A stretch of 64,000 bases of DNA, from contig JAIOPC010000014.1 of the NCBI GenBank assembly GCA_021414085.1, positions 1 through 64,000 on the forward strand, read 5' to 3'. Shown here one piece after another: positions 1,024-15,680 of the stretch (positions are counted from its first letter, which is position 1; the number at the start of each line of letters is the position of its first letter). The notes under the pieces were generated by a model, which ran no database searches, had not been told where the DNA came from, and worked only from the letters and a program-made list of their open reading frames with translations. Made by a program: the position numbers and the translations under genes. This DNA comes from Actinomycetes bacterium (lineage in GTDB: Bacteria; Actinomycetota; Acidimicrobiia; Acidimicrobiales; Ilumatobacteraceae).

Positions 1024-1155
1024 GTACGCAGTATCTCAAAGGGGTGTCACAGGGTTCCCAACCATGGTGTTTCAGGGTTTGTCGGCTCTTTAACGGTGCT
1101 TTAGCGCGCGGGTTCACCATGGGGTCATCAACCCGATACCACCAAGGAGCACACC

Positions 1156-1311
1156 ATGAAGATCAAGCCAGTTCAGCCCACCACCACCCAGAAGTCGGCC
1201 AGCGAGCCGAGCCGCCGGACCCTGGGTTTCAAGTACCACCCGAGCCGCCGGACCCTGGTCGCCAAGTTCCACCCGAGCCGCCGGACCATGTTTGGCCGGA
1301 TCCACCCCTAA
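1156..1311 (+). CDS. 51-residue repeat peptide, candidate RiPP-type or bacteriocin-like precursor
   Basis: The ATG at 1156 has a strong ribosome site (AAGGAG, 1143-1148). The product has a 17-residue head (MKIKPVQPTTTQKSASE), then three exact-length 11-residue units, PSRRTLGFKYH, PSRRTLVAKFH and PSRRTMFGRIH, then a final Pro. The consensus is PSRRT(L/M)xx(K/R)(aromatic or I)H. It is very basic, has no Cys, and shows no signal peptide or membrane segment. A 17-bp perfect hairpin follows, then an M50 metalloprotease gene in the same direction. A short head plus tandem core units beside a protease is the layout of multi-core peptide precursors. I do not recognise the family. Alternatives are a small regulatory or antimicrobial peptide used unmodified. 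No modifying enzyme such as a radical SAM, YcaO or LanM protein is visible nearby. Confidence 0.7.
   Translation: MKIKPVQPTTTQKSASEPSRRTLGFKYHPSRRTLVAKFHPSRRTMFGRIHP
1207..1305 (+). repeat. Three tandem 33-bp coding repeats inside the small peptide gene
   Basis: Units lie at 1207-1239, 1240-1272 and 1273-1305. The first 15 bases of each unit (encoding PSRRT) are identical in all three copies and the last codon (CAC, His) is also constant. The variable codons in between keep a positive residue at position 9 and a hydrophobic one at position 10. Exact 11-codon periodicity with no indel fits a translated repeat, not a random DNA repeat. Confidence 0.9.
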
Positions 1312-1320
1312 TCAGCCAGC

Positions 1321-1359
1321 AAACCGCCGGGGCACGCCCACCGCGTGCCCCGGCGGTTT
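1321..1359 (+). terminator. Perfect 17-bp hairpin between peptide and protease genes (terminator or attenuator)
   Basis: The arms at 1321-1337 and 1343-1359 are perfectly complementary around a 5-nt loop (CCACC). The run after the stem is only TTTC-GTTTC, so a classical U-tract is weak. It starts 9 nt after the peptide stop codon and ends 27 nt before the protease start. Such a stem would let the peptide be made in excess of the downstream enzyme and would stabilise the short upstream message. Partial read-through is inferred because no separate promoter for the protease is evident. Confidence 0.75.
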
Positions 1360-1386
1360 CGTTTCACCCCTGAAGGAGCCCCGCTC

Positions 1387-2841
1387 ATGTCGTCAGCAAC
1401 CCACACAATCTCGAAGACTCAGACCCCGCCAGTTGCCTTTGCGCCCTGGGTCGAGTGGCAGCAGGAACAGTGCCGCAACGGACGGATGCTCATCACCGCC
1501 GTCAATCAGCGCGAAGGACGGGCGATCTACCTCGACGGTGCCGACCTCGACCCGGCCAGTAGCGATCGCCACCGCAGTGCCTTAGCCGAACTTCATGACG
1601 GCGGATTCCTCGCCAGCGACGGCGAGGTTCGCTCGGCGAATACCGACGCCAAGATTCCCGGCGCTGGCCTTGTGTGGCGTGGGGCCGACCGCTTCGTGCG
1701 CCGCAGCCACGCTGCAGGGTTGCGCCGAGCATTCGACCGCCCGTGGGTCATCGCCCAACTTGCGTTGGCGTTGGTGGGTGCGGTTGCCGTGGTCCTCACG
1801 CTGCGCACCGACGGGCTCGAACTACACGCCCACCCAGCACAGATACCGGCCATCATTCTTCTTGGGCTAGTCGCCGTCTTCATTCACGAGATGGGGCATG
1901 CGCTCGTCACCGTCCACTACGGCCGTCGAGTGCGCATGGCGGGATTGCGTCTACACCTTGGCTCGCCAGCGTTCTACGTCGAGTCGCTCGACGCGTTGCT
2001 GCTGACACGTCGGCAACGATTGTTGCAAGCTGCCGCCGGGCCGTGGGCAGAGTGGCTCGCGACTTCCGTCGCTGCGCTCGTCTTTCTCGTCATTGCCCGC
2101 GACGGAGCTGCCGCCGCGATCCTGCAGCGATTCGTCGTGGTCAACACGATCGTGCTCGCGACCAACTTGCTTCCGTTTGTCGGCCTCGATGGTGCCCTGC
2201 TCTTCGCCGATGCGATTCGCGAACCAGACCTGACATTTCGCGTCAGCAATCCCGCAGGCAGCGACGCGCCAGCCGACCGCCTGTTCACCATCTACTCGGC
2301 GCTCAACGCTGCAGTCGCCGCCGCGCTGCTTGTCATGGCGGCGTTCTTCTGGTGGCAATTGTTCGGCGGCCTCATTGTCGCGCTGTGGTCGTCTGGTCCT
2401 GTCGGTGCGGTTGCTCTGGTCGTGGCTGGTCTCGCCCTCAGCCGTCAGCTGTGGCGCACCGTGTCGGCCGCCCTCGCGCCGGTCGTGGTGCATGCCCGCC
2501 GCATCCGGTCGAGAATGATCTTTCGTGCCCAGCGCCGCTGGCGAGTGAAGTCGATCACCGCGATGCGTTGCCTGCCAGAGATCGCGGCGCTGAGTGAAAG
2601 CGAGCTCGGAATCCTCGCCGGCCGCCTCGAGCGGATGTGCGTGCGCAGCTCGAACGGCCCGGTCGTCGACAGCCCAGTGGTCGTGCGTCGCGCGCTGTCG
2701 AAGGCCTCGCTCACCAAGGGCACGGTCATCACCTGGATCGGTGCCGCAGATTGCAAACGCTTCGCCGGCGCCGACCTCGTCGTGCTCCCGCCCAACTGGC
2801 GGACCTTTCTCGCGCAAACCACAAACCAAAGGAGCAGATAG
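1387..2841 (+). CDS. M50 (site-2 protease type) membrane metallopeptidase
   Basis: 484 residues from the ATG at 1387, which follows GAAGGAG at 1372-1378; longer GTG starts would fall inside the hairpin. The zinc motif HEMGH is at residues 167-171 inside a hydrophobic segment, and the second metal motif NLLPFVGLDG (Asp268) matches the NxxPxxPLDG motif of S2P proteases. About six membrane segments are seen between residues 105 and 370. The soluble tail (from about 390, PEIAALSESELGILAGRL) resembles the start of a degenerate cyclic-nucleotide-binding fold, which some M50 proteins carry. Bacterial M50 enzymes cleave peptides or regulators in or at the membrane. Here the neighbour is a repeat peptide, so maturation or release of that peptide is the likeliest job (inference). 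Confidence 0.85.
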   Translation: MSSATHTISKTQTPPVAFAPWVEWQQEQCRNGRMLITAVNQREGRAIYLDGADLDPASSDRHRSALAELHDGGFLASDGEVRSANTDAKIPGAGLVWRGADRFVRRSHAAGLRRAFDRPWVIAQLALALVGAVAVVLTLRTDGLELHAHPAQIPAIILLGLVAVFIHEMGHALVTVHYGRRVRMAGLRLHLGSPAFYVESLDALLLTRRQRLLQAAAGPWAEWLATSVAALVFLVIARDGAAAAILQRFVVVNTIVLATNLLPFVGLDGALLFADAIREPDLTFRVSNPAGSDAPADRLFTIYSALNAAVAAALLVMAAFFWWQLFGGLIVALWSSGPVGAVALVVAGLALSRQLWRTVSAALAPVVVHARRIRSRMIFRAQRRWRVKSITAMRCLPEIAALSESELGILAGRLERMCVRSSNGPVVDSPVVVRRALSKASLTKGTVITWIGAADCKRFAGADLVVLPPNWRTFLAQTTNQRSR

Positions 2842-2844
2842 GAA

Positions 2845-4827
2845 ATGCACGGCAAATCCAGCAAGTCAGTCCTCGCCGCCAAGGTCAGTAGGGCTAGCAA
2901 AGTAGGCCTGACGATCGCGTTGATCGCAGGCTGTCTGACAACTTGGTCGTCGCCACAAGCGCACGCCGCACCAGTAGTCGTTCCGGCGTCAGCCGGCTGG
3001 AGCGGAACGGTCACGTTGCACTATCGGTCGGACGAATCTTCCGACGATTTCAATTACATCCACACAGACACCACCGAGACGTTCGTCTTCGACGGGCAAC
3101 TCCTGGCCAACTCGCCGATCACGACGGATGGACTGACTTATCTCGACACATACCAGCAGTACGCGTCGGTATCGGGATCATCCACCATGACGAGCGGGTT
3201 GGGGGCCGAGAACTTCAACATCAAGACTGAGACCTCAGGTCAGTATCAGGGGGCTCGCAGACCGAACGGTCCGACATTTCACTTCCGCGTTGAGAGCACT
3301 GAAAGCACGCAGGGTTTCAGACTGGATATGACCTCGGCTGGTGATCAACCCGATGTCATGCCGACGAGCACCACGGAAACGGTCTGCGACATAACTGCAA
3401 GCCCGATCTGTTCAAACCGCGAGTACCAATCCGCAGGCGGTTGGTACTGGGATACGCCGATTTCGTCGTTGGGGGATCCGCTCCACAGTTGGTCGGTCGA
3501 TGGGAGCCGGGTCCAAAATCTCAGTTCGGGAAACCACACCGAGGTGAACACTCTGACCTGGCACCTCACGAGACTTCCAGATCAGGATGTCGACGGTGTT
3601 CCCGACGCCGATGACGACTGCCCTGGCACGTTCGACCCCGAGCAACTTTGCATCGACACCGATGGCGACGGCTTCGACGATGTTGATGACAACTGCACGT
3701 TCCTATTCAACGATCAGGCGAACAGTGACAACGACCCGTATGGCGATGCCTGCGACTCCGATGATGACAACGATGGCCTCACCGACGAATACGAGCTGAG
3801 CATCGCCACCGATCCGACGAACGTCGATAGCGACGGTGACGGGTTGTCCGACGGTACCGAGGTCAACGGGGTGCCGCCAAGCGATCCGAATGATCCCAAC
3901 GATCCACCTCGCGCTGGCTGTGTGAGCGGCGCTGACTATCGGTTCACGGGGGCAACGGTACGTGCCGAGCTGGATCTTCTCGGCCCTTTTGATCCCGACT
4001 TCTTCGAGTTCTCGACGACCATGAAGTGGTGCGTTGTCAACGGGCTTGTGTATGCGGACGGCGCACCATCAAACCTCAGCCTCGTCACGATGAACACTTT
4101 CCTTGCCACTGGATTGGACCTCCTCGGTTTCACGTGGGAGCCGGGGCCGGATCCGAACCCTCCGGGCGTCAGTGGTCAAGGCACGCCGACGATGACGGTC
4201 ACGTCGCAGGGGTTGTTTAAGGCGTGCTTCAACGTCATCGATGGGGCCGCGCTTGTCGGTGGCGGCCTCATCAAGGGTGGAGGCGCAGCCGTCAAGAAAT
4301 TCGGGCCAACGGTTATGAGCAAGTTCCTTTCAAGTACGAGAGCGGGAAGGAGTTTCTCCCAAGCAGTCGATGATGCGGTCTTTAGCGGGATCGCAAAAGC
4401 TGATGCGCTGATGGCGTCGGCGTCGAGGAAGGTCGACTCGCTCGTGCGTCGAGCGAAACGACTACTTCCGGACAGCCTGGTTGACGGGCTGAAAGACGTA
4501 CTGGAGGTTGCTCTCCTTGCTGCAGTTGAGGCAGTTCACGCGGCAGTTTCGACCGTTGTGCGCAGCGTCATCGAGCGAAACGGTCCATTGCTGGCCGCGA
4601 GTAAGCGGCTCAGGAGTCAGGCGACAGACCAGATCGAAACAGAGCTGGGCGCCGCGATTGGGAACATCTTCGGCGTCGAAATCCCCTCGTGGGACTGGTG
4701 CTACGACGCGTGGGAACCGGTCATGCAGATGACACTGTCTGCCGCAAACTCCTCGTCCGTAACCGTCGACGGATTCACGCCTCCCTACTTCGTTGTGAGC
4801 GGTGGTATTGACTTCGACCGTCGTTAG
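2845..4827 (+). CDS. Secreted protein with Asp-rich thrombospondin type 3 (calcium-binding) repeats
   Basis: 660 residues; the ATG is 3 nt after the protease stop and has AAGGAG upstream, so the two are co-transcribed. Residues 1-42 form a signal peptide with an Ala-rich cleavage site (AHA-AP). Residues about 50-240 form a beta-type domain of unknown family with paired Cys. Residues about 246-355 hold repeats of the type DxDxDGxxDxxDxC, as in thrombospondin type 3 and OmpA-linked calcium-binding stretches. The last 240 residues include glycine-rich and amphipathic helical segments and a closing beta-type stretch. No catalytic motif is evident. It may be a cell-surface partner, carrier or target of the peptide cassette; the specific role is unknown. 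Confidence 0.75.
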   Translation: MHGKSSKSVLAAKVSRASKVGLTIALIAGCLTTWSSPQAHAAPVVVPASAGWSGTVTLHYRSDESSDDFNYIHTDTTETFVFDGQLLANSPITTDGLTYLDTYQQYASVSGSSTMTSGLGAENFNIKTETSGQYQGARRPNGPTFHFRVESTESTQGFRLDMTSAGDQPDVMPTSTTETVCDITASPICSNREYQSAGGWYWDTPISSLGDPLHSWSVDGSRVQNLSSGNHTEVNTLTWHLTRLPDQDVDGVPDADDDCPGTFDPEQLCIDTDGDGFDDVDDNCTFLFNDQANSDNDPYGDACDSDDDNDGLTDEYELSIATDPTNVDSDGDGLSDGTEVNGVPPSDPNDPNDPPRAGCVSGADYRFTGATVRAELDLLGPFDPDFFEFSTTMKWCVVNGLVYADGAPSNLSLVTMNTFLATGLDLLGFTWEPGPDPNPPGVSGQGTPTMTVTSQGLFKACFNVIDGAALVGGGLIKGGGAAVKKFGPTVMSKFLSSTRAGRSFSQAVDDAVFSGIAKADALMASASRKVDSLVRRAKRLLPDSLVDGLKDVLEVALLAAVEAVHAAVSTVVRSVIERNGPLLAASKRLRSQATDQIETELGAAIGNIFGVEIPSWDWCYDAWEPVMQMTLSAANSSSVTVDGFTPPYFVVSGGIDFDRR

Positions 4828-4833
4828 CTAGCC

Positions 4834-4866
4834 GAAGCCCGTAGTCACCTAGTGGCTACGGGCTTC
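4834..4866. terminator. Bidirectional 15-bp terminator hairpin between convergent genes
   Basis: Arms 4834-4848 and 4852-4866 pair over 15 positions with one G-T wobble, with a 3-nt loop. The loop (CTA) is the stop codon, read on the minus strand, of the SARP gene ending at 4849, so the right arm is also its last five sense codons. It lies 7 nt after the plus-strand stop at 4827 and would serve both directions. Confidence 0.75.
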
Positions 4867-7800
4867 GCCAAGCATTGCTACGGCTTCCGTCGGCGAGACG
4901 CGACGCTCGCGTACGTCGGTCGGCAGGTGGCGCAACCGGTCGGCGGAATCAGCGGGCAACACCCGGAGCAACGCGTCAAGCGCGACCGCCACACTCTCGA
5001 GCATTTGCGTCGGTGCGAACGTGTCGAGCGCTTCGAGTAGGTACACCCGAGCATTGACATCGTCCCCTTCGGCGCTGGCGATGAGCCCGCGGGCGTATGC
5101 GCGCAGCCCGATCTCGCGTGGCTCAGGGTTGTTGCGGGCGAGTCTGGCGATGATCGTCGCGTTCTCGCGTGCGACTGCAAGGTCGCCGAGCTTTGTGACC
5201 ACTTCGATCAACCGAACTCGGTCGTTCAGTTCTTCGCGCGGATCGGCGAGTTGCAGGTTGATCACCAATGATCGTTCGACGAACTCGCGGGCGGCGGCCA
5301 AATCGTTCCGAGATTCAGCTATCCATGCCTTCCCGTACACTGCGTAGCCGATCAACAGAGGCAGGCCGAACCGAACTGCATCGCTCATAGCAGCGTCGAA
5401 CTCGGCGTCCGACCCATCGACATCACCGATGATGAAAAGTAGACGTGCGTGTTGGTAGCTCAGGAATCCCTCTGAAGCCCCATACGAGTTATGCGACCGC
5501 AGCCGTGGGCCGAGTAGCGCTTCAGCGTCATCAAGTCGCCGTTGGCGCAGTAGCAAGTTGGCGTAGCTGTTGAGCGCGTGCCCTGCCTCGCGCCAATGAC
5601 CGGTCGCCTCCAGACGTGAGATCGCTGAGACGAGCTGCGACTCCGACTCCGACTCCGCTCCGGCGTCGGACATTCTGATGTCGCCAGCGATGAACTCGGC
5701 GAATGCACCGCATGGTTCATCGTCGAGCAATCGTGCCAGAGCGAGCGCCTCGTCGGCCCAGCTGCGCTCCTCGTCCGACGACCGGCCGGATCGGTACGCC
5801 GCAACAAGAAGTACGGGAAGGCGATCCTCCGGTTCCACACCGGAGTTCGCCAGCACAACGTCGATCCAAGAATTGAGTGTGTTGACGTCTCCCGACTCTC
5901 GCCAGAGCAACGGGCCAAGCGCGCCGATCAACTTCGCCAAACTCGAATCGTCGCCCGACGACACGTAGAAGTCGCCGGCCGCGCGCAGGTTTGCTGCTTC
6001 GGCCTGCAGAGAGTTGAACGCTTGCGCGGGGTCCGGCCCATCGCTGGCCACACGCGTCCGCTCGCCCCATGCGATCATCTCCTGTGCATGGCGGCGACGA
6101 ATCTCGGATTGCTCATCCGCATCGAGTCGACCCGCGGCGAACGCCTTCACCGTCTCCAACAGTCTGTATCGGGGCTGACGGTTCGCGCGATCGACAGCGA
6201 CCAGTGAGGCGGCCACGACCGTGTCGAGAGAATCGACAACCGCTTCACCGCCTACGGTTCCGTTCGGGTCTGAGCACACGGCCAGAATTGCGTCGAGGGT
6301 CGCACCACCCTCAAACACCGACAACCGCCGCAGGAGAGCTTGCGCTGCACCGGACAGCAGGTCGTAGCTCCATTGAATAGTGCTGTACAGCGTCCGGTGT
6401 CGATCATTTGCGGTTCGGCTACTCAACTGCAGCACATGGCCCTCACCGAGTTGTTCAAGGATGTTTGCCGCCGACATCGTCTGCAAGCGAGCCGCGACCA
6501 ACTCGATTCCCAACGGGAGATGATCGACGGCCGCACACAGCTGCGCATTATCCGTTGCGTTGTCGCCACTCGTATTCGCGCCACCGCGCAGTGCGCGCCG
6601 CTCAAGGAGCGCAACTGCGTCAACAGGTTGTAGCCCAGACAACGGAATCACCGTCTCATCGGAGATTGCGAGGCGCTCACGACTAGTAGCCAGGATTCGT
6701 ACGCCCGAGCACGACTGAAGAATCGCTTCGATGGTCGCTGCTGCGTGAATGATGACGTGCTCGCAATTGTCAATCACGAGCAGCAGATTGGTGTCGGCGA
6801 GCAGGCTGACGAGCGCCGCCAACGAGGTGTTGTCGTCGCCCGTGCGAATGCCAAGTGCCGAACCGATTGTGGTAGCGACAAGCGTTCCGTCGGTTACCTG
6901 GCTGAGGTCGGCGAACCACACGCCGTCGGAGTACCGCTCACTCACGGCCGCGGCGACGTTGACGGCGAGCGAGGTCTTGCCGATTCCACCCGGTCCCACA
7001 AGTGTCACCAATCGGTTGTGCGCGATTCGTTCGGTGACGTCGGCGACGAGATCGTCGCGGCCGATCAATTCCTTGGTGGCTGGCAACCGCCGGCCCGGAC
7101 CGGAGAGTCGGTCCGGCTCGACAATCGTTGGCGGGGCATCGAGCGAAGCGTCTTGATCGAGTACTGCGGTCTCCAACTCGATGATCGCGGCGCACGGCCG
7201 CACCCCCATTTCGTCGCGCAGGATTCGACGGAGGTCGGCGAGTCGCGCCAAGGCGTCGACCTGGCGCCCGCAGCGATACAACGCAAGGATGAGTCGCTGC
7301 CACAACGTCTCGCGATACGGCGACTGCGACACCCAGTGCTCGAGCGCCGGAATCACCGAACTGGCGCGACCACAGCCAATCTCAGCGTCGGCCCACACTT
7401 CGACCAGGTCGAGTCGCTGATCGGACATGCGGGTAACTACCGGACCGGCGAACGGGGTTTCGCCGAGGCCGCTCAGTGGGTCGCCAGTCCACAGCGCGAG
7501 ACCCGCCGCTGCCAGCCGAGCAGCCTCCGCAGGGTTGCCGTCGTCGAGACAACGTCGTGCATCGGAAAGCAGCAATCCAAACCTCAGTGCATCCACCGCT
7601 TCGGGAGCGATGTTCAACACGTATCCGGGCGAGCGAGTGACGATGGCCTCGGCGCCGCCTTGTTGAGCAATCGCTTGCCGTAACTGCGATACCTGCACCT
7701 GCAGATTCGTGCGAACCGTTCGGGGCGCATCCTCACCCCACACACCGTCGATCAGACGATCGATCGAGAGCACCCGACCGGCATCGAGGGCGAGCATTGC

Positions 7801-7923
7801 GAGCACAGCCGCTTGCTTGGCTGGAAGGACAATCGGAACGGCACCGATGCGCAGGGCCACGGGCCCCAAAACGGAGACAGCGATGCCGACTTCTGCAACT
7901 TCCGTAGCCTGAGGCCTCGCCAT
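4849..7923 (-). CDS. AfsR/SARP-family transcriptional regulator (SARP1)
   Basis: 1024 residues. The N-terminus (SVLGPVALRIG, then VRTNLQVQVSQLRQAI) is an OmpR-type winged helix as in SARP activators, followed by a bacterial transcriptional activator domain to about residue 250. A P-loop (GPGGIGKTS, near 310) and Walker B (LLLVIDNCEHV, near 378) define an NB-ARC/STAND ATPase. The C-terminal third is helical and TPR-like. AfsR-type proteins activate secondary-metabolite or transport genes in response to a signal bound by the TPR part. It is the last gene of the minus-strand peptide-transport string, 34 nt after the S66 peptidase. It lacks a Shine-Dalgarno site and has a TACGAT box 6 nt before the start. 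It is a close paralogue of the regulator at 12612-15680. Confidence 0.93.
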   Translation of the reverse strand: MARPQATEVAEVGIAVSVLGPVALRIGAVPIVLPAKQAAVLAMLALDAGRVLSIDRLIDGVWGEDAPRTVRTNLQVQVSQLRQAIAQQGGAEAIVTRSPGYVLNIAPEAVDALRFGLLLSDARRCLDDGNPAEAARLAAAGLALWTGDPLSGLGETPFAGPVVTRMSDQRLDLVEVWADAEIGCGRASSVIPALEHWVSQSPYRETLWQRLILALYRCGRQVDALARLADLRRILRDEMGVRPCAAIIELETAVLDQDASLDAPPTIVEPDRLSGPGRRLPATKELIGRDDLVADVTERIAHNRLVTLVGPGGIGKTSLAVNVAAAVSERYSDGVWFADLSQVTDGTLVATTIGSALGIRTGDDNTSLAALVSLLADTNLLLVIDNCEHVIIHAAATIEAILQSCSGVRILATSRERLAISDETVIPLSGLQPVDAVALLERRALRGGANTSGDNATDNAQLCAAVDHLPLGIELVAARLQTMSAANILEQLGEGHVLQLSSRTANDRHRTLYSTIQWSYDLLSGAAQALLRRLSVFEGGATLDAILAVCSDPNGTVGGEAVVDSLDTVVAASLVAVDRANRQPRYRLLETVKAFAAGRLDADEQSEIRRRHAQEMIAWGERTRVASDGPDPAQAFNSLQAEAANLRAAGDFYVSSGDDSSLAKLIGALGPLLWRESGDVNTLNSWIDVVLANSGVEPEDRLPVLLVAAYRSGRSSDEERSWADEALALARLLDDEPCGAFAEFIAGDIRMSDAGAESESESQLVSAISRLEATGHWREAGHALNSYANLLLRQRRLDDAEALLGPRLRSHNSYGASEGFLSYQHARLLFIIGDVDGSDAEFDAAMSDAVRFGLPLLIGYAVYGKAWIAESRNDLAAAREFVERSLVINLQLADPREELNDRVRLIEVVTKLGDLAVARENATIIARLARNNPEPREIGLRAYARGLIASAEGDDVNARVYLLEALDTFAPTQMLESVAVALDALLRVLPADSADRLRHLPTDVRERRVSPTEAVAMLGEARSH

Positions 7924-7957: not shown

Positions 7958-8995
7958 TCAGGCGACGGCTGCCTCGATGAGGCTGAATGTTTTCTCGTTG
8001 TTGTTGAGCTCGGCGAGGACGCCCAATGGGAGGATCCATTGCGGATCGGTGTGTCCGAAATCCATGTTGGTCACGATGGAGAGATCTTTGGCCCCGAATT
8101 GGCCGACGACGGTGTCGATGATCATTTGGTCGAGCTCGACCTTCTCCGCATCGGAGTAGCCGCGGGCGCGTCCGAAGAGGAGCCCGGCCGCTCGTTCGAA
8201 CACGCCTTGGATTCCGTAATTGAACAACCAGTAGCGAACCTGATCGATCGATGGCTTTTCCTCGGACGTCTCAAGAAACAGAATCCGGTCATTCCAGAAG
8301 TCTGCGACAGGCCAGAAGCGGGAACCCTTCAGAAACTCGAGCACCTCGACACAACCTCCAAACAGCCTCCCGGTTGCAACACCCGAACCGTTCAACCAGT
8401 GCCATCCACCATTTGGCCGTAACTCGCCGACGCTGTCGATATTGCGAGGGTCGTTCCAATCCGCGTACGAGTCAACCCACTGTGAGTAGGGCTGATAACT
8501 GAACCTTTCGGTCGGTTCAAACAGCATCGCCTTGATGTGCGTCGCCGCCTGAGGAAAGTGCCGGAGTTGTGCCATCCCGGCCATCACCGCGGGCCCGTGG
8601 AACGTCACGAGACCCAGGTTGTGGCAGAACACCAGTTGCGTAACGGTGTCCGAGTAACCCATCAAGACCTTCGGGCTAGCCCGAATCAGTTCCGCATCGA
8701 GGTACGGCAGGATGAGGGCCGAGTCGTCACCGCCAATCGAAGCAATAATCGCTGAGACCGATTCGTCTGCGAAGGCGGCGTTGAGGTCCGCCGCTCGCGA
8801 CCTCGGGTCGCTTCCCGACGTCCCAGATCCGAGCCGAGTTGTCGGGCTTTCCTTGATCCGGAGACCTAGCTGGTCAGTCAAGGTCTGCAGACCCGCATTG
8901 AACACGTGTGGAAAGACTGCCGGCCCACCCCACGACATCGACACCACCGACACCGCGTCGCCCTCGTGCAATCGTTCGGGCCGGGTGAACTCCAT
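7958..8995 (-). CDS. S66 family serine peptidase, MccF/LD-carboxypeptidase type
   Basis: 345 residues. The family triad is visible: nucleophile Ser115 in MGYSDTV, Glu217 in GGCVEVLEFL and His315 in NMDFGHTDP. Typical S66 segments (IASIGGDDS, TFHGPAVM) are present. Members include LD-carboxypeptidase, which trims muropeptides, and MccF, which inactivates the peptide-nucleotide antibiotic microcin C by cleaving its acyl-sulfamoyl adenylate. The nucleophile position and overall length favour the MccF-like branch. It follows the permease genes by 42 nt in the same operon, so its substrate is probably a peptide taken up by that transporter. Whether it recycles cell wall or gives immunity cannot be decided from sequence. 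Confidence 0.88.
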   Translation of the reverse strand: MEFTRPERLHEGDAVSVVSMSWGGPAVFPHVFNAGLQTLTDQLGLRIKESPTTRLGSGTSGSDPRSRAADLNAAFADESVSAIIASIGGDDSALILPYLDAELIRASPKVLMGYSDTVTQLVFCHNLGLVTFHGPAVMAGMAQLRHFPQAATHIKAMLFEPTERFSYQPYSQWVDSYADWNDPRNIDSVGELRPNGGWHWLNGSGVATGRLFGGCVEVLEFLKGSRFWPVADFWNDRILFLETSEEKPSIDQVRYWLFNYGIQGVFERAAGLLFGRARGYSDAEKVELDQMIIDTVVGQFGAKDLSIVTNMDFGHTDPQWILPLGVLAELNNNEKTFSLIEAAVA

Positions 8996-12611: not shown

Positions 12612-15600
12612 TCAGATGTCGCGCAACGCGTTGAGGAGCGCTGGCACTTCCGCCGGCGACACGCGACCCTCGCGAACGTCTCTCGGCAAGCTACGTAACT
12701 GTTCTGCGGCCTGCGCTGAAAGAGTCTGCAGCACGTCCTCAAGCATGTCGGCCATCTGGTCGAGCAACCTGGTTTGGGCGTACGCCTTTACCGCTTCGAG
12801 CATGAGTGCGCGTGCTGCCTTCTGGTCGCCCTCCGCGAGTGCGATGACGCCGTGTGCGTGGGCGGCTTGGCCGATTTCCCCGGGCTCCGGAGTTTTGCGG
12901 GCAAGCTCGCTCACCACGAGTGCGTGCTCCCGAGCGGCATCGAGATCGCCAAGCTTGGCGCACACAACGGCCAACCGTGCGCGGTCGACGAGGGCATCGC
13001 GCCAATCGCCGTATTGGTTTCCTAAGACGAGTGAGCGCTCGAAACATTCGCGGGCTGTGCCAAAGTCGTTCTTTCGCTGGGCCGCCCATCCTTTTCCGAA
13101 CCATCCGAACGCCATGGCTAGCGGCAACTCAAGACGCTCGGCGATACGCATTGCTAGGTCGATACCTGCAAGTGCCCCATCGATGTCGCCGGCACTCAGC
13201 CGCAATCGGCCTTGCTGGTATTGCATCAAGGCTGCAGTGGCCCCGTATAGCTCGCGTGACCGAAGGCGGGGTGCGAGAAGCTCTTGTGCCTCGTCGAATC
13301 GCCGCTCGCGTAGCAATAGCCACGCGTACGAGTTCACTGCGTAACCGGCGCGTCGCCAATGCCCGATCCCCTCCAAACGAGCGATCGCTGACTGGAAAGT
13401 CGCCTCCAGGCGCGTGTCAGCCTCGGTGACCAACAGGTCGCCGATCACGAACTCGGCGAACCCGATTGCGGCATCGTCCGAAAGCCGTGTCGCCAATTCG
13501 AGCGCTTCGTTCGCTCGCTCGCGCGCCAAGAACGGTGGGCCGTCGGGGCGGAACGCGGCGATGAGGAGCACGGCGAGTCGGACAGTCGGCTCGAGGTCGC
13601 TATAGGTCAACAGGAGATCGAGCCACGATCCGAGTTCCTTGATTGGGCAGGCCTCGCGCCACAGCAAAGGGCCCGGTGCGCTCACCAACTCGGCCAGCTT
13701 CGTGTGTGAGTTCGCCGACTCGAAGAACTGATACGCAGCTCGCAGGTTTGCCGCTTCAACTTGTATCGAATGAAAAGCTTCAGCAGAATCCAACCCCTCG
13801 CTGATCACCGCCATCCGCCGACCGAAGTCGATCATGTACTCCGCGTGCCGTCGTCGAGCTTCGTTCTGCTCGTGCTCGTCAAGCTGATCGACCGCGAACG
13901 CCTTCACCGTCTCAAGCAGCAGGTATCGCGGGTGTCGACCCGCCCGTTCGACCGAGATAAGTGAGGCAGCAACAGATGTGTCCAGTACGTCAACCACGGG
14001 CAGACCGTCAAGCATCCCATTAGGGTCCGAACAGACCGCCAAGACCGCGCCGAGGGTTGCCCCGCCTTCGAACACGGAAAGGCGCCGAATCAGTTTCTGA
14101 CCGCTTGCCGACAGTAGGTCGTAACTCCATTGGACCGTGCTGTACAAGCTTCGCCGGCGATCGATGACGGTGCGATTCTCCAACTGCAGCACACCTTTGG
14201 CACCGAGTTGGCCGAGGATGTCTCTGGCGGACATCGACGCGAGGCGGGCGGCGACCAACTCGATGCCGAGCGGCAAGTGATCGACCGCGACACAGAGCGC
14301 AACTTCGTCGGCCGCCGCCTCGCCGGTGGTTGTGGCGCCACCGCGCCTGGCGCGCCGCGTGAGCAGAGCAACTGCATCATCTGACTGCAATGGCGGCAGC
14401 ACAATCGCCACTTCGTCCGGTAAGGCGAGGCGCTCGCGACTGGTTGCCAGGATTCTTACGCCCGGGCAGGAGCCAAGAATCCTTTCGATCGACTCCGCAG
14501 CATGGACAATGACATGCTCGCAATTGTCAATGGCCAGCAAGAGCTCGGTATCGGCGAGCAGCGAGACAACCGCTTGCAGCGTCGCTACGTCATCGCCGGT
14601 GCGCATCCCGAGTGCTGTACCGATAGTGGTGGCGACGAGCGTTCCATCGAGGACGTTGCTCAGATCCACAAACCAGACACCGTCGGGGTACGTCTCGGTG
14701 AGCGCTGACGCAACGTTCACGGCGATCGAGGTCTTTCCGATGCCGCCAGGCCCGACGAGCGTGACCAGGCGGTTCTCGAGGCACCGTTGCAAAGCTTCTT
14801 CCAACAACTCGTCGCGACCCGTCAGTTCCTTGGTGGCAGGCAGTCGTCGACCAGGACCGTTCAGGCGTGCGGGCAAAGCAGCTGTTGGCGCGGCGTCGAG
14901 CGAACCGTCTTGATCGAGAATCGACGTCTCCAACTCGACGATGGCGGCGCACGGTCGCACGCCGATCTCGTCGCGAAGCGTGCGACGTAGATCAGCCAGC
15001 CGCGCTAACGCGTCGGCCTGGCGACCGCAGCGGTACAAAGCAAGTATCAGTCGTTGCCACAGCGTCTCTCGGTACGGCCAGTGCGCCACCCAGTCCTCGA
15101 GTGGGGGAACCACTGAACTGGCACGTCCGCAAGCGATTTCGGCGTCGGCCCACAATTCGACAAGGTCGAGTCGTTGGTCGGCGAGGCGGGTGACAACCGG
15201 TGCCGCGAACGGAGCGTCGCTGAGCCCACTGAGTGCATCACCTCTCCAGAGTTGAAGTCCTGCATTGGCCGATCGCGCGGCTTCGACGGCGTCGCCATCG
15301 GCGAGACATCGCCGAGTGTCTGCCACCAGTTGAGCGAATTGCAAGGCGTCCACCGCATCTGGCTCGAGGCTCAGCATGTAACCGGGCGCCCGCGTGACGA
15401 TCACGTCTCCGGAACCGTGCTGGGCGATGGCCTGACGCAACTGCGAGACCTGCACCTGAAGGTTCGACCGCACGGTGCGCGGCGCGTCGTCACCCCAGAT
15501 CCCGTCGATCAAGCGATCAATCGAGACGACTCGACCCGCTTCGAGCGCCAGCATCGCCAGTGCCGCGGCCTGCTTCGCGGGAAGCGGAACAGGGACACCA

Positions 15601-15680
15601 CCGACATTCAGCGCCACGGGACCGAGAATCGAGACAGCGACGCCAGATTTCGTTTTGCCCTTTGCCCCAGTCCGCGCCAC
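12612..15680 (-). CDS. AfsR/SARP-family transcriptional regulator (SARP2)
   Basis: 1022 residues from a GTG at 15680. It has the same order as SARP1: OmpR-type winged helix (SILGPVALNVG, VRSNLQVQVSQLRQAI), BTAD region, P-loop GPGGIGKTS near residue 306, Walker B LLLAIDNCEHV, and a long helical TPR-like tail. The DNA-binding third is very similar to SARP1, while the tails differ more, which suggests shared or overlapping operators and different signals. It heads the minus-strand string and its stop is 6 nt from the 11-bp repeats in front of the lipoprotein gene, so it likely activates that operon. There is no Shine-Dalgarno site; a TACGCT box lies 6 nt before the start. Confidence 0.93.
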   Translation of the reverse strand: MARTGAKGKTKSGVAVSILGPVALNVGGVPVPLPAKQAAALAMLALEAGRVVSIDRLIDGIWGDDAPRTVRSNLQVQVSQLRQAIAQHGSGDVIVTRAPGYMLSLEPDAVDALQFAQLVADTRRCLADGDAVEAARSANAGLQLWRGDALSGLSDAPFAAPVVTRLADQRLDLVELWADAEIACGRASSVVPPLEDWVAHWPYRETLWQRLILALYRCGRQADALARLADLRRTLRDEIGVRPCAAIVELETSILDQDGSLDAAPTAALPARLNGPGRRLPATKELTGRDELLEEALQRCLENRLVTLVGPGGIGKTSIAVNVASALTETYPDGVWFVDLSNVLDGTLVATTIGTALGMRTGDDVATLQAVVSLLADTELLLAIDNCEHVIVHAAESIERILGSCPGVRILATSRERLALPDEVAIVLPPLQSDDAVALLTRRARRGGATTTGEAAADEVALCVAVDHLPLGIELVAARLASMSARDILGQLGAKGVLQLENRTVIDRRRSLYSTVQWSYDLLSASGQKLIRRLSVFEGGATLGAVLAVCSDPNGMLDGLPVVDVLDTSVAASLISVERAGRHPRYLLLETVKAFAVDQLDEHEQNEARRRHAEYMIDFGRRMAVISEGLDSAEAFHSIQVEAANLRAAYQFFESANSHTKLAELVSAPGPLLWREACPIKELGSWLDLLLTYSDLEPTVRLAVLLIAAFRPDGPPFLARERANEALELATRLSDDAAIGFAEFVIGDLLVTEADTRLEATFQSAIARLEGIGHWRRAGYAVNSYAWLLLRERRFDEAQELLAPRLRSRELYGATAALMQYQQGRLRLSAGDIDGALAGIDLAMRIAERLELPLAMAFGWFGKGWAAQRKNDFGTARECFERSLVLGNQYGDWRDALVDRARLAVVCAKLGDLDAAREHALVVSELARKTPEPGEIGQAAHAHGVIALAEGDQKAARALMLEAVKAYAQTRLLDQMADMLEDVLQTLSAQAAEQLRSLPRDVREGRVSPAEVPALLNALRDI

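Follow-up and report, generated by a model that had tools for sequence, protein, structure and literature searches.

Within a 64,000-nucleotide stretch of contig JAIOPC010000014.1 (GenBank assembly GCA_021414085.1, an actinomycete of the family Ilumatobacteraceae; the whole stretch is called the window below), a short gene for a repetitive peptide stands directly ahead of a gene for a membrane protein that resembles the M50 or site-2 proteases (S2Ps), and the same pairing of peptide and protease recurs in distantly related actinobacteria. The precursor-protease family is real and recurrent and apparently undescribed; searches of an open-access library showed no description of it, which is no proof of absence. 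As read from the sequences, its base is the co-occurrence of the two genes, the contrast in conservation between leader and core, the coding constraint in relatives, and the RRE-like (RiPP recognition element, for ribosomally synthesized and post-translationally modified peptides) and M50 domains of the protease family. To these are added, in most relatives, putative CRP-type operators ahead of the peptide and predicted domains binding cyclic nucleotides (cNMP) on the protease. By the same comparison the window copy is a derived form, with the peptide ahead of the protease, three units in the peptide, and no zinc finger, cNMP domain or operators found.

We consider it reasonably probable that the peptide and the S2P of this clade form a maturation system. 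A short precursor would consist of a leader with the pattern [IV]xP(xxP) and a basic, often repetitive tail, and its leader would be bound by the RRE-like domain of the membrane protease. The protease would then cut the leader off, as described for MpaP of the daptides (PMC10036551), and the cationic peptide would be set free or exported, in the way proposed for EpeP (PMC10885120). The peptide may have an antimicrobial or signalling role. A wider reading, which we hold only tentatively, is a new class of ribosomal peptides whose sole maturation enzyme would be an RRE-guided intramembrane protease, the common form being controlled doubly by cyclic nucleotides (tandem operators and cNMP domains of the protease) and the window branch having lost such control and remodelled the cationic core into three units with diversifying hexapeptides. 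The first-pass annotation of the window had proposed a leader and repeated cores beside an S2P-type protease, and this RiPP-like part is largely supported, while a conserved link to a calcium-binding surface protein is not supported.

The relatives were collected with searches of increasing breadth. Among 61 genomes, the window's own included, a protease match was found in four at E 0.001. A two-sequence profile run against 397 genomes of the order added genomes G676 (locus L049, E 5e-94) and G436 (L050, E 8e-31); most of the remaining order matches, among the matches listed, fall in the cNMP part of this profile. A four-sequence profile matched 51 of 396 phylum genomes at E 1e-12 and 9 of 395 class genomes (own genome included in both; best other class match E 6e-41), and the 22 places that scored 1.1e-73 or better in the phylum search, own genome aside, are L092-L113. 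The protease is found in 16 of 27 genomes in the class of G786 (E 1e-30), and in 3 of 5 and 1 of 24 genomes in the classes of G722 and G891, respectively (both E 1e-60). In a tree of 35 proteins, those of the window, L049, L021, L050 and L092-L113 make one group of 26 (support 93/88), which is recovered in 95% of 200 bootstrap trees with MpaP and the other included RRE/cNMP/M50 proteins outside it; an earlier tree without the named MpaP gave the same clade (94/91). The window and L049 proteases are sisters (100/99), and their loci share the gene order peptide, protease, secreted protein, with SRRT units in the L049 peptide. The L050 protease sits on a long branch and its placement is unsure. 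A viral home is not supported, as none of 57 pattern matches for relatives in viral contigs was confirmed. Eleven plasmid records gave partial M50 matches, none over 80% of the query; 5 of 10 among the matches listed are annotated mpaP, and an mpaP locus is annotated on a Streptomyces plasmid.

A precursor-like peptide adjoins the protease in 20 of the 21 evaluable clade loci, five of the 26 (L103, L106, L107, L110, L111) being cut by contig ends and left out. Thus, the conservation of the peptide beside the M50 gene, on which the first-pass annotation had staked its proposal, is kept in these loci, and so is the arrangement expected of RiPPs in general, in which a maturation protein adjoins the gene for a precursor made of leader and core. 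In 16 loci (L092-L102, L104, L105, L108, L109, L112) a peptide with a [KQ][IV]xP leader follows the protease, two such peptides being present in each of L095 and L104. The window and L049 peptides lie directly upstream of the protease, and that of L021 lies upstream in divergent orientation. Upstream of the L050 protease are three repeat peptides, with another truncated at the contig edge, and L113, the 21st evaluable locus, has a small basic open reading frame (ORF). Of the 21 loci, 19 have the [IV]xP leader, and 14 of these extend it to the full [IV]xPxxP, the second proline being absent in L096, L098, L099, L100 and L105. Near the start of background ORFs of 35-70 residues, [KREQ][IV]xPxxP occurs in 2 of 1201, and in none of the 268 basic ones, though this pattern was chosen after the relatives had been seen and L021 fits it only without the first position. 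Eight of the 13 first seed peptides were chosen by the leader pattern (a repeat scan supplied L093, L095b, L097 and L109, and an ORF list L021), so that counts by this pattern are partly circular. Less circular are the detection of L096, L098, L100 and L105 by a family hidden Markov model (HMM) and a leave-one-out run, which retrieved all 18 family peptides tested when the six-frame ORFs from 47 sources were searched (E 7e-11 to 0.064). The GTG starts of the L096, L100 and L105 peptides were assigned by reading.

The window and L049 peptides are significantly similar to each other (2 of 2000 shuffles reach the score), and they are tied to the family by the protease tree, their position, the leader pattern and this mutual similarity. 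The L021 peptide has the family leader ITPKKPAAK and then ESRETKR, ESRQTKR and ESRHTV, reminiscent of PSRRT. The peptide tails across the clade are basic and variable, and 23 of 24 peptides, among those listed, have a net charge of +6 to +25. L104 carries tandem precursors (6986-7330) with identical leaders and cationic cores after Gly-Gly that have a helix-forming look. No NCBIfam family matched nine small peptides scanned (window, L021, L049, L050, L092, L093, L097, L108, L109). Loci outside the clade (L022-L028, L051, L052, L054-L059, L114-L118) yielded no family peptide; their best HMM match has E 0.017 (L057). Repeat peptides may accompany other M50-like proteases there: an ORF with PIDA.VAAN repeats is immediately upstream of an M50-like protein in L026 (2120-2458). 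In L022 (8363-8800) the ORF beside a cNMP-PqqD-M50 protein ends in many 15-residue repeats (SGGSLDAGSLDAGAV) and is cut by the contig end.

Codon changes in the relatives favour a coding function of these frames. The seven 16-residue units of L050 show 172 of 284 differences at third positions (pN/pS 0.20), and the repeats of the L095 pair (0.23) and L109 (0.11) also change mostly silently; two SRRTF blocks of L049 differ by silent changes only (3). The ratios of L093 and L097 are less clear (0.46 and 0.56), and L096 and L100 differ by just two changes. In the L104 pair the leaders are identical over 13 codons (39 nt) and the cores are strongly diverged (pS 0.65, pN 0.32). On such comparisons the leader is more conserved than the core.

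As for the window itself, the first-pass annotation described a 51-codon ORF with a ribosome-binding site, a head of 17 residues and three exact units of 11 residues, followed by a perfect 17-bp hairpin and an M50 gene, and all of this is borne out (Table 1). The product is MKIKPVQPTTTQKSASE followed by PSRRTLGFKYH, PSRRTLVAKFH, PSRRTMFGRIH and a final P. In the DNA, three copies of 33 nt begin at 1207, 1240 and 1273; the 15-nt block CCGAGCCGCCGGACC has three copies in the window, while 0 of 100 shuffles gave three matches (mean 0.06), and the repeat score of the peptide has a z of 19.8 when compared with 60 shuffled versions of it. This PSRRT block is identical in all units, and all 21 pairwise nucleotide differences fall in their last 18 nt. 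Eighteen of them are nonsynonymous (pN/pS 2.1, a small sample), which hints at diversification of the hexapeptide. The fold after the peptide stop has a z of -7.7 (40 simple shuffles), and the hairpin, paired at 17 of 17 positions, is likely a terminator or attenuator. Of the 20 peptide loci in the family, 18 have a hairpin with a z of -2 or lower (40 simple shuffles at each locus) behind the last peptide gene, L021 and L050 being the exceptions. Between 900 and 5000 of the window, neither an Rfam match nor a sigma-70-like promoter was found.

The tail of the window peptide may be cleaved into three 11-mers. An alternative compatible with the maturation system, and one to which we give almost even weight, is that the units stay uncut and the tail works undivided as a multivalent cationic peptide. 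Unit boundaries vary between loci, as do the residues at them, and many relatives have a single motif instead of repeats, as this alternative would expect, and the exact period of 11 residues in the window and of 16 in the L050 peptides speaks against it. The helical moments of the three window 11-mers are not above those of shuffles (1723, 1786 and 1906 of 2000 shuffles are as high), and we therefore make no claim of an antimicrobial helix for the window; in the four tails tested from relatives (two of L104, L097, L105) the moment is above 94-96% of shuffles.

The window protease has both HEMGH and LDG, and HExxH and LDG are metal-site motifs of M50 and site-2 proteases. Its Pfam M50 match is below the cut-off (22 bits against 27.2), and 24 of the 26 clade members, the window included, match M50 at E 0.001. 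Its fold model is poor (mean pLDDT 55) and weakly resembles solved S2Ps (3b4r, prob 0.99, E 0.19; 8vjl, prob 0.97, E 0.1). An alternative GTG start at 1345, within the hairpin, is also open. Complete protease frames of the clade are mostly about 700 to 800 residues long. Domains binding cNMP are found in 22 of the 26, with two copies in each of the six scanned singly; the window, which has no Pfam match to a cNMP domain, and L049 are among the four without (the other two are not named in our table; the L050 protease is short and that of L111 is cut by the contig end). The C-termini of the window and L049 proteases align with the start of the L021 cNMP region and then fade. The N-terminal domain of the family (16 sequences) matches the L022 domain that Pfam calls PqqD (prob 96%, E 1.3e-9); its best match among solved structures, a weak one, is PaaA (5ff5, E 0.094), and PaaA-like_N matches weakly in 5 of 16 members. 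The N-terminal domain of PaaA is an RRE.

The regulatory signature lies mostly outside the window branch. The sequence GTGA-N6-TCAC, the core of the CRP consensus and hence labelled a CRP-type operator here, occurs in the 300 nt preceding the peptide at 13 of 19 loci, against 4 sites in 252,869 background bases, and often as two or three sites 23-24 nt apart. This pattern was first noticed in L092 and then counted (12 of 18 without L092; L050 left out), and no site is present at the window, L049, L021, L095, L097 or L104. A CRP-type regulator is near 14 of the 26 loci by one phmmer search, and Pfam confirms it at L049, L093, L094 and L113, plus L092, which phmmer missed. Among the matches listed, 19 of 26 loci have a zinc finger (CWHCR...CRFCGR, about 70 residues), which stands after the protease everywhere but in L095 and L104; none was seen at the window (first 8 kb), L049 or L050. 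The same type stands beside two proteases outside the clade (L023 4561, L114 2919), and the zinc finger may therefore be older than the peptide family.

Within 6 kb, the items recurring in at least 3 of 26 loci are the protease, the zinc finger, the CRP regulator, MoaA (4 loci), a PrmC-like methyltransferase, a cyclase, DUF6457, one unassigned 234-residue ORF and antisense frames, with Pfam identities taken from scanned representatives; MoaA and the four kinds of gene named after it recur in three or four loci each. The comparison behind this list used stricter gene models, 228 for the 26 loci, and misses some genes (by its count the zinc finger is in 11 loci, CRP in 10). No dedicated peptide-modifying enzyme is among the recurrent genes, as judged by Pfam. 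MoaA was set aside as a modifier: the L094 copy has Radical_SAM and Mob_synth_C above the cut-offs and reads as molybdopterin synthesis, and the L092 frame has a weak Mob_synth_C match. The cyclase, 1147 residues long, combines adenylate/guanylate cyclase and AAA domains; it lies at most 6 kb from the protease in 3 of 26 loci (L095 1757-5197, L108, L109) and is a possible source of cyclic nucleotide. The 234-residue ORF (L092 3735-4436; also L093, L099, L103) has a signal-like start, no Pfam match, and a place directly before the protease.

Several results weigh against the maturation system or against counting the window copy in it. At E 0.001 the protease is missing from all 14 other genomes searched in the window's genus. 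The leader motif is absent from the L050 and L113 peptides, and in L050 a Peptidase_S74 (endosialidase chaperone) ORF of 111 residues (8635-8970) separates the repeat peptides from the protease. The family HMM misses the window peptide and likewise does not recover that of L049, and similarity of the window peptide is not significant to the L021 peptide (252 of 2000 shuffles reach the score) or to the L050 peptide (1722 of 2000). The pN/pS of 2.1 rests on so few changes that the window units alone are no demonstration of purifying selection. The whole L049 peptide has a net charge of 0, its tail alone being basic. Recurrent transporter or immunity genes were not seen among the clade neighbours. 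In direct profile comparison with the family RRE domain, neither the window N-terminal segment alone nor the N-terminus of MpaP (prob 6%) was significant; an RRE is therefore supported for the protease family by its profile match and only plausible for the window protease. Finally, Lys/Ala/Pro-rich basic tails might also bind nucleic acid.

This last point leads to the strongest rival, which we regard as unlikely, though worth keeping in mind: the peptides would be small cationic intracellular proteins that bind nucleic acid or regulate, with the protease (with its cNMP domains), the CRP regulator and the zinc finger controlling their level or anchoring them. It would account for the positive charge of nearly all listed peptides (23 of 24, L049 excepted), the CRP-type regulators near 14 of 26 loci and L092, the operators upstream of peptides, and the cyclase-domain protein within 6 kb in three loci. 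On the other hand, cores vary more than leaders in the L104 pair, the kin of the clade protease are RiPP proteases, and the cores of the window and L104 do not look by eye like histone-like tails. Still less probable is a RiPP with true side-chain or terminal modification by an enzyme encoded elsewhere in the genome. The fusion of RRE and S2P is the architecture of the daptide protease (PMC10036551), upstream of the window cassette the view stops at the contig end, and modification enzymes were sought in the visible neighbourhood alone; against this, the genes recurring in at least 3 of 26 loci within 6 kb include no dedicated modifier, with MoaA read as above. That the peptide frame is a chance one beside a real protease gene is very hard to believe, even though the ORF is short, unannotated and missed by the family HMM in the window, and the constant block of its units has no silent changes, given the repeat z, the gene order and SRRT units kept in the sister L049, and the wealth of silent changes among relatives.

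Among known systems, the daptides come closest to the proposed maturation system. There, an RRE domain fused ahead of the site-2 protease MpaP, which removes the leader, led to their discovery (PMC10036551). Like them, the family has a putative RRE-S2P fusion, next to which lie short precursors that share a conserved N-terminal motif (PMC10036551), and MpaP is homologous to the clade protease (hhalign 99%). However, MpaP falls outside the 26-locus clade, the leader is [IV]xP(xxP) with basic cores instead of ELExMEAP, and most clade relatives add cNMP domains, a zinc finger and CRP-type operators. The daptide_HExxH equivalog of NCBIfam, with a cut-off of 300, scores 84.6 in the window (E 7e-24), 146.3 in L021 and 153.4 in L092. 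The window peptide has a KIKPVQP leader and ends in proline, whereas daptide precursors have a leader of the ELExMEAP type and a C-terminal threonine. No mpaB/C/D/M gene was found by Pfam on the 3' side of the window to 15.7 kb or in the 5' view of 1.1 kb (DUF222), nor are these among the genes recurring in at least 3 of 26 clade loci. With a score far under the cut-off and none of these genes in view, a daptide cluster was rejected. The family is thus not a daptide by test, and we infer that it works like RRE/S2P peptide maturation.

In epipeptides, the M50 protease EpeP/YydH is thought to cut and export the peptide (PMC10885120). The profile matches the window protease weakly (34.7 against 225 bits), but no radical SAM epimerase is among the window neighbours scanned and MoaA is the sole recurrent radical SAM gene (4 of 26 loci). 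In pearlins, the M50 proteases TglG/TmoG trim modified residues from the scaffold C-terminus, and the likeness lies in the pairing of a membrane M50 protease with a small ribosomal peptide as its substrate (PMC10885120), whereas no pearlin-type ligase was seen to recur in clade loci, with no search aimed at the ligase. The cNMP/PqqD/M50 fusions of the L022 type have the same three domains and a repeat-rich ORF alongside, but their cNMP domains are N-terminal and they fall outside the clade.

The gene 3 nt after the M50 gene is present as first described, and its product has a TSP3_bac match just above the cut-off (26 bits against 25). A conserved link to a calcium-binding surface protein is not supported: an unrelated PKD-domain protein occupies that place in the sister locus L049 and the TSP3 protein has no second copy in its own genome at E 1e-5, and thus a conserved role for it was rejected. 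Base 1 of the window is also base 1 of its contig, and therefore only ~1.1 kb is visible upstream of the peptide, where a DUF222 gene lies on the opposite strand before the contig end. The 3' neighbour is a BTAD/NB-ARC regulator. The absence of a modifying enzyme from this neighbourhood, as stated at first, holds for the 3' side to 15.7 kb by Pfam and for the 5' side, which has the DUF222 gene only. There are two BTAD/NB-ARC regulators of ~1020 residues (4849-7923 and 12612-15680), 63% identical, and a block of an LD-carboxypeptidase and a peptide-type ABC transporter sits between them.

Table 1. Features of the peptide-protease locus in the window.
Feature	Position	Strand	Basis
Ribosome-binding site AAGGAG	1144..1149	+	Sequence; 6 nt ahead of the peptide-gene ATG
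Putative precursor peptide gene, 51 codons, ATG start	1156..1311	+	Same place ahead of the protease in sister L049, similar peptide there
Putative 17-codon leader with KIKPVQP ([IV]xPxxP pattern)	1156..1206	+	Rarity of the pattern in background ORFs
Three 11-codon units, PSRRT plus variable hexapeptide	1207..1305	+	DNA repeat
Perfect 17-bp hairpin 3' of the peptide gene	1321..1359	+	Arms 1321-1337 and 1343-1359, 17/17 paired
M50/site-2-protease-like membrane protein	1387..2841	+	HEMGH 1885-1899, LDG 2185-2193; ATG start
N-terminal RRE-like segment of the M50 protein	1423..1638	+	Model: three strands then helices, 10-residue blocks of pLDDT 60-79
C-terminal stretch where relatives carry cNMP-binding domains	2521..2838	+	Alignment with L021 and L049
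Apparently secreted protein, TSP3 repeats at about 3577-3858	2845..4827	+	TSP3_bac; signal peptide judged by eye

Finally, these proteases are a separate clade of probably RRE-fused site-2 proteases with a precursor family of their own and no recurrent dedicated modification enzyme. Their regulatory signature, with tandem CRP-type sites and cNMP domains on the protease, is unusually clear. The family provides a concrete and testable set of cationic peptides and raises the question of whether intramembrane proteolysis alone can mature peptides.

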